Origin: Rhodospirillaceae bacterium
Lineage (GTDB): Bacteria; Pseudomonadota; Alphaproteobacteria; MPNO01; UBA2964
DNA: 64,000 nucleotides
Assembly: GCA_002720855.1 (NCBI GenBank)
Contig: PBIN01000014.1
Span: forward strand, 124,001-188,000
Direction of reading: 5' to 3'
Shown: positions 59,754-62,699 of the stretch, piece by piece
How the letters are laid out: each line of letters starts with the position of its first letter
How positions within the stretch are numbered: the first letter of the stretch is position 1
The notes under the pieces: generated by a model
What the model saw: only the letters and a program-made list of their open reading frames with translations
Database searches by the model: none
What the model was told of the DNA's origin: nothing
Program-made: the position numbers and the translations under genes

Positions 59754-60947
59754 TTACACCTTTGCCAGCGCCTGGGCAATATCTTCTTTTAGGTCTTCCA
59801 CATCCTCCAGGCCAATTGAAAGCCGTACAAAACCGTCAGTAATGCCTAGTTGTGCACGCTCTTCCTCGGAAATTCTCTGGTGCGTGGTCGTCGCAGGGTG
59901 CGTCGTCAAACTCTTCGCATCACCAAGATTGTTGGAAATATCCACAAGCTGCAAGGCATTCATGAAACGGAAGGCGTTTTCCTTGTTGCCATCGAGATCG
60001 AGACAAACAACCGTACCGAAGTCGGACATTTGCGCCTTGGCGAGCTCGTGCTGTGGATGCGATTTCAGGCCCGGATATAAGACTCTCGTCGGCTTGGATT
60101 CTTCTGTCAGGAAGGAAGCAATTTCCGATGCATTGCGGCAGTGTTTTTCGACGCGCATCTCCAGAGTTTCCAATGCCTTTAGCAGGACCCAGGCATTGAA
60201 CGGGCTCATTGATGGGCCCGTGTGACGATAGAAGGGGTTCAATTTTTCGTTGACCCATTCTTCTGTTCCCAAAATGGCGCCACCCATGGTCCGGCCATGG
60301 CCGTCGATATGTTTCGTGGTCGAATATACAACGATATCGGCGCCCAGCTCCAAGGGGTGTTGCAATACCGGAGTAGCAAAAACATTGTCGACGATGACAA
60401 TTGCGCCAGCATTGTGAGCTAACCTGCAGACAGCCTGAACATCAATTATTTCCAATCCTGGGTTCGATGGCGTTTCGAAAAACATCGCTTTGGTCGGTTT
60501 ACTGAGCGCTTTTTCCCACTGGTCGAGATCTGCGCCATCGACAATCGTGGTCTCAACACCATAGCGCGGCAGAATTTCTGTCAGAACAAACTGGCAGGAG
60601 CCAAACAGGGCCCGCGACCCAACCACGTGATCTCCTGCACTGACATGGCAGGCCAACGCGGCGAACACGGCCGCCATTCCACTTGCTGTCGCGCGGCACG
60701 CTTCGGCACCTTCCAACAAACACATTCTATCCTGAAACATTTCATTGGTCGGATTGCCGTAGCGGGAATAGATAAACCGCTCGACCTCGTTTTTAAATGC
60801 TGCTTCCGCATCTTCCGCTCTTTCATATACGAATCCAGAGGTCATAAAGATCGCCTCATCGGTTTCGTCGAAGTGCGTGCGCTTTGTTCCGCCCCGAACG
60901 AGCTGGGTTTGCGGGCGCCAGTTTTTTTCCGTTTGTTCTATCGTCAT
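59754..60947 (-). CDS. metZ: O-succinylhomoserine sulfhydrylase
   Basis: MetZ is a PLP enzyme making homocysteine directly from O-succinylhomoserine and sulfide. The PLP lysine lies in VYSTTKHIDGHGRTMGG (about residue 209), with TASGMAAVFAAL, ETPSNPGLEIID and RLSIGLEDVEDL also intact. The length of 397 fits. ATG 60947 has GGAG six bases upstream; the frame extends a further seven codons. Transcription is probably controlled by the SAM-II riboswitch and terminator upstream, consistent with methionine/SAM feedback. Confidence 0.95.
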   Translation of the reverse strand: MTIEQTEKNWRPQTQLVRGGTKRTHFDETDEAIFMTSGFVYERAEDAEAAFKNEVERFIYSRYGNPTNEMFQDRMCLLEGAEACRATASGMAAVFAALACHVSAGDHVVGSRALFGSCQFVLTEILPRYGVETTIVDGADLDQWEKALSKPTKAMFFETPSNPGLEIIDVQAVCRLAHNAGAIVIVDNVFATPVLQHPLELGADIVVYSTTKHIDGHGRTMGGAILGTEEWVNEKLNPFYRHTGPSMSPFNAWVLLKALETLEMRVEKHCRNASEIASFLTEESKPTRVLYPGLKSHPQHELAKAQMSDFGTVVCLDLDGNKENAFRFMNALQLVDISNNLGDAKSLTTHPATTTHQRISEEERAQLGITDGFVRLSIGLEDVEDLKEDIAQALAKV

Positions 60948-61001
60948 CTCAGTCTCCTCACGGCGCATTCATTCTGGCTGCCGCCGCGTGAATGCCCAAA
61001 T

Positions 61002-61028
61002 AAAAAACCCCGACCGATTGGGTCAGGG
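61002..61028 (-). terminator. Riboswitch-controlled terminator of metZ
   Basis: On the minus strand CCCTGACC (61028-61021) pairs with GGTCGGGG (61015-61008) around a five-base loop, followed by six T (61007-61002). It lies between the SAM-II aptamer and the metZ start, so its formation would stop transcription before metZ. Confidence 0.88.
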
Positions 61029-61038
61029 CTATGACGGG

Positions 61039-61100
61039 CTCCGACCTTTTAGCGGTTTATTTAACGTGGTCGCAAGCCAGTCGGGCTCAAATCACCACAA
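61039..61100 (-). promoter_or_regulatory. SAM-II (metA-type) riboswitch aptamer
   Basis: The minus-strand RNA has the SAM-II arrangement: stem P1 GTGGT (61098-61094) with ACCAC, the conserved GATTTG, the TTGC segment, GTTAAA and GCTAAAAGG. Pseudoknot strand CCGAC (about 61084-61080) can pair with GTCGG (about 61045-61041). SAM-II aptamers in alphaproteobacteria sit before methionine genes such as metA and metZ, and here it precedes metZ. The promoter immediately upstream puts the transcript start within a few bases of P1. Confidence 0.88.
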
Positions 61101-61105
61101 GCGCG

Positions 61106-61134
61106 TTACTACTCCTGTGACGACAGGGCGTCAA
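61106..61134 (-). promoter_or_regulatory. Promoter of the metZ riboswitch transcript
   Basis: On the minus strand TTGACG (61134-61129) is followed after 17 bases by TAGTAA (61111-61106). The predicted start near 61099 coincides with P1 of the SAM-II aptamer. The spacer carries an inverted repeat, CCTGT-N4-ACAGG (61114-61127), which could be a protein operator. Confidence 0.6.
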
Positions 61135-61253: not shown

Positions 61254-62699
61254 GTGTCCAGCGAGAATTTACTGATTATTGCACCATGGGCGGTGTTGAT
61301 TATTTACTGCGGTATCGTTTGGCTTTGTAGCCCGCGCGGCGTGTCGGCAAGCCAGTTTTTTAAAGGAAGCGGAGATAGCGGCGCATCACCGGCACTCTGG
61401 GTTCTCGTCTTTAGCGCAGCCATATCGTGGATCTTTGCAAAGTCGATCGCCAACGCCGCCAACCTGGGGCAGGCCTTCGGTATTACCGGCAGCATTGGAT
61501 ATGCGACATATTATCTGAGTTTCGTGGTTGCTGCGGTGGCGATTTATTACATCCGCGTAAAGGGTGGCTTTGGCTCGCTGGCGAGTTTTCTGATTGGTAA
61601 ATATGGTGCGCTCTGCGCGCGGCTGTTCCTGATCGCCATAGGCATTCGTCTCTTTAACGAGGTGTGGTCTAACACCAAGGTGGCGGCGATGTATTTCGGC
61701 GAAGAAGGCAGCGGCGCATACTGGGTCGCTGCCATCGCAGTGACAGTCTTTACGATGTTCTACGCGTGGCGGGGTGGGTTGCGCAGTTCGCTTCTGACCG
61801 ACGCCGGTCAGATGTTGTTGGCTGCAGTACTGCTCGTCGTCATACTAATCGCAGTTTTCCCACCACTTATGGAACGTGGCTTGCCCGAAGTGCCCGATAC
61901 GGTGCATTGGGCCGGTGTTACCTTTATCGCTCTCGCTGCGGTACAGGTGCTGAGTTATCCGTTCCACGACCCGGTTCTCACGGATCGCGGCTTTCTCACC
62001 AAACCCGGCGTCATGGTCAAAGGATTCCTACTCGCTGGTTTGCTGAGCGGCATCTTTATATTGATGTTCAGTGCGGTTGGGCTTTTTGCTCGCGCCGAAG
62101 GATTGGAAGGCACCTCCACCGTCGCTGTTCCGATGGCCTTTGGTTTGCCGCTTCTTCTCGTGTTCAACGCCATTATGCTTACAAGCGCTGGCTCCACTCT
62201 CGATTCAACTTTTGCCAGTACAGCGAAACTGGCAGCAATTGACTGGCCCGACCGCCGTAGTGAGCCTGAGGCAGGCGAACGCTCGCTTGGACGTTGGGCG
62301 ATGATAACGATTGCCCTGTTTGGCAATTTACCGCTTTTGACCATCTATATGGGAGACGGGATCGGCCCCGCAATCATTGCGGCAACAACGATCAGCGGCA
62401 CCATGGTGATGGGGCTGGCGCCAATCTTCCTGCTTTCCTTCCTGCCGTCGGCCGGACCGGCGAGCTTCCATATGGCTTTCTGGCCGGGGCTTTTATTCGG
62501 TGTATTGATTACCGTGGAAAGCGCTACCGGTATGCAGATATTCCCGAGCTGGATTGATGTTGGCAGCGGCAAATATGCCGATGACCTCGGCGTCAACATT
62601 TATGGCTTGCTGATCTGCACAACGGGCTACATTCTGGGAGCGTTGATTTTTGGACGCCGAACATCGATGGCCACGGGCGGTTCCGCTACCGACGCTTAA
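61254..62699 (+). CDS. Sodium:solute symporter (SSS) family protein
   Basis: This 481-residue inner-membrane protein has about thirteen helices and belongs to the SSS family. Typical elements are the GxxWF-like ISWIFAKSIANAANLGQ near residue 55, GKYGALCARLFLIAIG, YAWRGGLRSSLLTDAGQ (the family TD-Q motif) and TSAGSTLDSTFASTAKL, which matches the sodium-site Ser/Thr cluster of this family. The imported solute is unknown. The GTG start has GGGGA eight bases upstream. It is divergent from metZ and overlaps the convergent ctaA by four bases. Confidence 0.9.
   Translation: MSSENLLIIAPWAVLIIYCGIVWLCSPRGVSASQFFKGSGDSGASPALWVLVFSAAISWIFAKSIANAANLGQAFGITGSIGYATYYLSFVVAAVAIYYIRVKGGFGSLASFLIGKYGALCARLFLIAIGIRLFNEVWSNTKVAAMYFGEEGSGAYWVAAIAVTVFTMFYAWRGGLRSSLLTDAGQMLLAAVLLVVILIAVFPPLMERGLPEVPDTVHWAGVTFIALAAVQVLSYPFHDPVLTDRGFLTKPGVMVKGFLLAGLLSGIFILMFSAVGLFARAEGLEGTSTVAVPMAFGLPLLLVFNAIMLTSAGSTLDSTFASTAKLAAIDWPDRRSEPEAGERSLGRWAMITIALFGNLPLLTIYMGDGIGPAIIAATTISGTMVMGLAPIFLLSFLPSAGPASFHMAFWPGLLFGVLITVESATGMQIFPSWIDVGSGKYADDLGVNIYGLLICTTGYILGALIFGRRTSMATGGSATDA

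Follow-up and report, generated by a model that had tools for sequence, protein, structure and literature searches.

The SAM-II class of riboswitches was described in 2005 as an RNA with a stem, P1, and a pseudoknot, P2, that binds SAM; that report also covers compensatory mutants of P2, terminators in many members and a transcription start site generally located just before P1 (PMC1273637). According to a 2014 survey, the SAM_alpha regulon of Rhizobiales and Rhodobacterales has metY at its core (PMC4239095). For the metZ leader of Sinorhizobium meliloti, a 2022 study predicted SAM-induced intrinsic termination and reported that more SAM increases the level of the approximately 100-nt leader RNA and decreases that of metZ mRNA (PMC9373788). 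Here, we analyzed a metZ leader of a Rhodospirillaceae bacterium, located in a window of 64,000 nucleotides, i.e., the whole stretch of DNA under study. We consider it highly likely that metZ is repressed through transcription attenuation by a SAM-II riboswitch in this leader.

Layout of the metZ leader

The minus strand encodes, in the order of transcription, a SAM-II aptamer, an intrinsic terminator and metZ, with its ATG at 60947 (Table 1). The aptamer named in the original prediction was recovered by a covariance-model search with RF00521 (SAM_alpha) at 61108-61029 (-). The match covers the full model and scores 61.9 bits, where the gathering score is 36; its E-value for the 64,000-nt window is 1.7e-11. 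P1 is part of the Rfam consensus structure, and the P2 pairs covary among 67 metZ leaders. A search of the same genome with SAM_alpha at E 0.001 gave no second match, and a search with SAM_V gave none in this genome or in the controls.

Downstream of the aptamer is a methionine/SAM biosynthesis gene, as the match of its product to TIGR01325 indicates. We took ATG 60947 as the likely start of metZ, in preference to that of a longer frame, because homologues in related genomes begin at the same codon. A hairpin predicted between the terminator and the start codon, at 61000-60945 (-), takes in CCGTGAGGAG, which corresponds to the Shine-Dalgarno sequence, and similar folds are found in some leaders of the same genus. 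This predicted hairpin is possibly a second layer of control, or it may have arisen by chance. Divergently from metZ, positions 61254-62699 (+) contain a frame for a membrane-protein-like product of 481 aa, which had no match in Pfam or NCBIfam at E 0.001 and by eye resembles a solute symporter.

The putative promoter has a spacing of 17 nt between TTGACG and TAGTAA. Our promoter scan missed this region (61134-61106) because the -10 element is poor and fell below the threshold. As TTGAC is found at nearly the same place in 13 of 13 other leaders read from the same GTDB family, a transcription start near 61100, just before P1, is plausible. The promoter spacer contains an inverted repeat, CCTGT-cgtc-ACAGG, at 61127-61114 (-). 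We rejected this repeat, CCTGTcgtcACAGG, as a conserved operator: a 5-bp version with a different sequence is present in 2 of 14 leaders, and the others have none. The relative L008 carries TCCGC-gaca-GCGGA at that place.

Table 1. Features of the metZ leader and gene (positions in the window)
Feature	Position	Strand	Basis or remark
Putative -35 element, TTGACG	61129..61134	-	relatives have TTGAC at a similar distance from the aptamer
Putative -10 element, TAGTAA, weak (3 of 6)	61106..61111	-	position kept in relatives
SAM-II (SAM_alpha) aptamer	61029..61108	-	Rfam RF00521, 61.9 bits, model 1-79/79
P1 5' strand, GTGGT	61094..61098	-	pairs with 61070-61066; Rfam consensus structure
P2 pseudoknot 5' strand, CCGACT, in aptamer loop	61079..61084	-	compensatory changes with 61046-61041; swap z -9.2
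P1 3' strand, ACCAC	61066..61070	-	Rfam consensus structure
GGTCGG, P2 3' strand or predicted antiterminator 5' strand	61041..61046	-	swap test, strand sets, tree
GCCCTGACC, predicted antiterminator 3' strand or inner part of terminator 5' arm	61021..61029	-	
Intrinsic terminator hairpin, 10 bp, loop 61020-61016	61006..61030	-	pattern scan; about -16 kcal/mol
Terminator T tract, TTTTTT	61002..61007	-	sequence
Shine-Dalgarno-like GAGGAG	60954..60959	-	precedes ATG 60947; present in most relatives of the same genus
metZ, O-succinylhomoserine sulfhydrylase, 397 aa	59754..60947	-	ATG 60947; TIGR01325, 576.8 bits (cut-off 510)

Alternative pairings and their covariation

The strings on which the original prediction was built all lie on the minus strand where it had located them, GGTCGG at 61046-61041, CCTGACC at 61027-61021 and GGTCGGGG at 61015-61008, with CCGAC at 61084-61080. 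GGTCGG can pair with CCGACT at 61084-61079, forming P2, or with CTGACC at 61026-61021, forming an antiterminator. In the latter, 61046-61038 faces 61029-61021 in six pairs (one of them G-U), an A-C mismatch and two more pairs, and the hairpin alone has a predicted energy of -10.0 kcal/mol. The segment 61030-61021 likewise has two partners, 61046-61038 in the antiterminator and 61015-61006 in the terminator. As befits a transcription-attenuating leader, the 5' arm of the terminator is thus able to pair with the switching strand of the aptamer. The initial description of three uses of one strand was inexact. The P2 3' strand has two uses, as does the terminator 5' arm, and the terminator pairing is not a third use of the GGTCGG at 61046, since the terminator 3' arm (61015-61006) contains a separate, second copy within GGTCGGGG.

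Two further candidates were set aside. A match to anti-hemB over the terminator was regarded as a chance hairpin match (16.8 bits against a gathering score of 49.5). In the full-length minimum-energy fold, 61046-61033 is predicted to pair with approximately 61082 to 61068, a further use of GGTCGG that would break both P1 and P2. This pairing depends on the GGAGCC that follows the P2 strand and is absent from other lineages, and we took it to be an artefact of the prediction or a misfold of limited phylogenetic range.

The leader is shared by relatives. Within the same GTDB family, each of the 13 genomes searched has a SAM_alpha match above the cut-off; 25 of 27 genomes in the order have one, whereas the 14 control genomes have none. 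A motif scan of named genomes yielded 119 further stretches, mostly from Rhizobiales. A T-tailed hairpin follows the aptamer in 127 of the 145 SAM-II leaders read, and metZ is just downstream at about two-thirds of the SAM-II loci (98 hits).

All three pairings were analyzed in these leaders by a swap test, in which a leader's own strands are compared with those of other leaders (79 distinct leaders, 5000 permutations; the test ignores relatedness). Own strands paired better than swapped ones for P2 (-9.77 versus -7.48 kcal/mol, z -9.2), for the antiterminator (-10.51 versus -9.05 kcal/mol, z -6.1) and for the terminator (-15.97 versus -10.41 kcal/mol, z -14.3), and for each of them 0 of 5000 permutations did as well. 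Compensatory double changes were then counted on a metZ protein tree with 67 leaves. There were 8 in two pairs of P2, 5 in four pairs of the antiterminator, two of them on deep branches, and 15 in the three terminator pairs examined. All six antiterminator pairs are present in 49 of the 67 leaves, and 18 are without the full six in a fixed register; other stems are found in some lineages, i.e., Mesorhizobium and metA leaders.

The metZ leaders with a simple stem fall into sets according to the P2 3' strand. With GGTCGG, the loop has CCGACC or CCGACT and the downstream site CTGACC, CCGACT or CCGATC; with GACCGG, both sites have CCGGTC; with GGCCGG, the loop has CCGGCC and the downstream site CCGGCC or CCGGCT; and with AACCGG, both have CCGGTT. 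Covariation of the three pairings, on which the first reading of the locus had staked its validity, is therefore present in all of them and least supported for the antiterminator. At the level of sequence, it provides strong backing for the P2 and terminator pairings; for the antiterminator, with few changes on the tree and a permutation test that takes no account of relatedness, the backing is modest. Our literature search found no paper that formally shows covariation between pseudoknot and antiterminator in metZ SAM-II leaders. We give roughly even chances to the idea that the double role of the P2 strand is ancient and covaries among the metZ SAM-II leaders of Alphaproteobacteria, which would make SAM-II a kinetic switch there.

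Some relatives depart from this scheme. In L013, the P2 strands are changed to CCGATC/GATCGG, CTGATC is kept downstream and there is no recognisable terminator; this leader perhaps uses another mode of control. SAM_alpha-like matches just below the gathering score (28 to 34 bits) are present in genomes of the same order (L017:1348-1531 (-), L019:934-1577 (-), L033:1501-2230 (+), L015, L016, L020 and L034), and some are followed after approximately 40 to 600 nt by SAM_V-like matches (29 to 35 bits, gathering score 41). Their sequences suggest that such pairs are possibly divergent SAM-II/SAM-V tandems. Downstream of the L016 match is a distant relative of metZ (33% identity).

A model of the switch and its alternatives

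In minimum-energy folds of the growing transcript without ligand, which leave out the energy of the pseudoknot, the antiterminator is present for every 3' end from 61021 to 61010; from 61008 onward, its place is taken by the terminator. The terminator is also present in the full-length fold without ligand. As the ligand-free full-length RNA is predicted to prefer the terminator, a model of the switch would need kinetic rather than equilibrium control. At low SAM concentrations, the newly made GGUCGG (61046-61041) would pair with 61029-61021 to form the antiterminator, and RNA polymerase would continue into metZ. At sufficient SAM concentrations, the aptamer would close and keep GGUCGG in the P2 pseudoknot, leaving 61030-61021 free to pair with 61015-61006; the resulting terminator would stop transcription after about 95 to 100 nt. 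This interplay of P2, antiterminator and terminator, with metZ as the controlled gene, had been proposed at the outset, and the pairings, their covariation and the TIGR01325 match all agree with it. We infer SAM binding and SAM-dependent termination from the SAM-II family (PMC1273637) and from the homologous metZ leader of S. meliloti (PMC9373788). Very probably, the present leader RNA senses SAM and then stops transcription.

Control might instead be exerted mainly on translation or RNA stability by a genuine aptamer, the terminator being a constitutive attenuator unaffected by SAM. A scheme of this kind has been put forward for the metA leader of S. meliloti, where the prediction was that SAM does not act on the terminator, and mRNAs were more stable under high SAM conditions (PMC9373788); moreover, the downstream part of the leader in the present genus may fold around the Shine-Dalgarno sequence. 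However, that sequence lies 82 nt past the P2 strand, so that P2 is unable to mask it directly, and the complementarity between the terminator 5' arm and the P2 3' strand is maintained in relatives, which a constitutive terminator does not need. We thus regard this scheme as improbable.

Fortuitous complementarity, i.e., a GC-rich terminator that repeats GGTCGG but is unrelated to the SAM-II aptamer before it, might be invoked since the stems of both P2 and the terminator are rich in G and C and strands exchanged between leaders still pair fairly well (mean of -9.05 kcal/mol). The swap tests and the changes on the tree argue against it, as do 2000 dinucleotide-preserving shuffles of the 93 nt that follow the P2 strand. 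A site with full complementarity to GGTCGG and, after it, a second GGTCGG occurred in 3 of the shuffles, and in 0 of 2000 together with a T run, making coincidence very hard to credit. Finally, in S. meliloti the leader RNAs greatly outnumber the mRNAs, and a role in trans was raised for them (PMC9373788), but a SAM-dependent terminated RNA of approximately 100 nt acting in trans as the main product, with control of metZ as secondary, has no known target and the switch itself accounts for the conservation, so that we give this idea almost no weight.

Comparison with described SAM-II leaders

For the transcription-terminating expression platform of SAM-II, predictions far outnumber tests, and the metZ leader, being compact, would serve well as a template to assay SAM-II by single-round transcription. 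Attenuation by a SAM-II aptamer, our preferred reading, adds one well-formed and comparatively supported example of the class and does not change the field's picture.

The leader resembles SAM-II (RF00521) in P1, the P2 pseudoknot and the conserved core GATTTG...GGCTTGC...GCTAAA, as well as in a start, here a predicted one, a few nucleotides before P1, a terminator between P2 and the gene, and a methionine gene downstream (PMC1273637). It differs in its P2, which is CCGACT/GGUCGG with one G-U pair, and the antiterminator pairing described here is not spelled out in the part of the paper available. With the S. meliloti metZ leader (RZ sRNA), it shares the gene, a predicted SAM-induced termination and a leader RNA of approximately 100 nt (PMC9373788). 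The two differ in lineage, and Rhizobium metZ leaders use GACCGG/CCGGTC in contrast with GGTCGG/CTGACC here. The class and the attenuation mechanism were thus already described; what is new is the genome, together with the alternative pairings kept across relatives.
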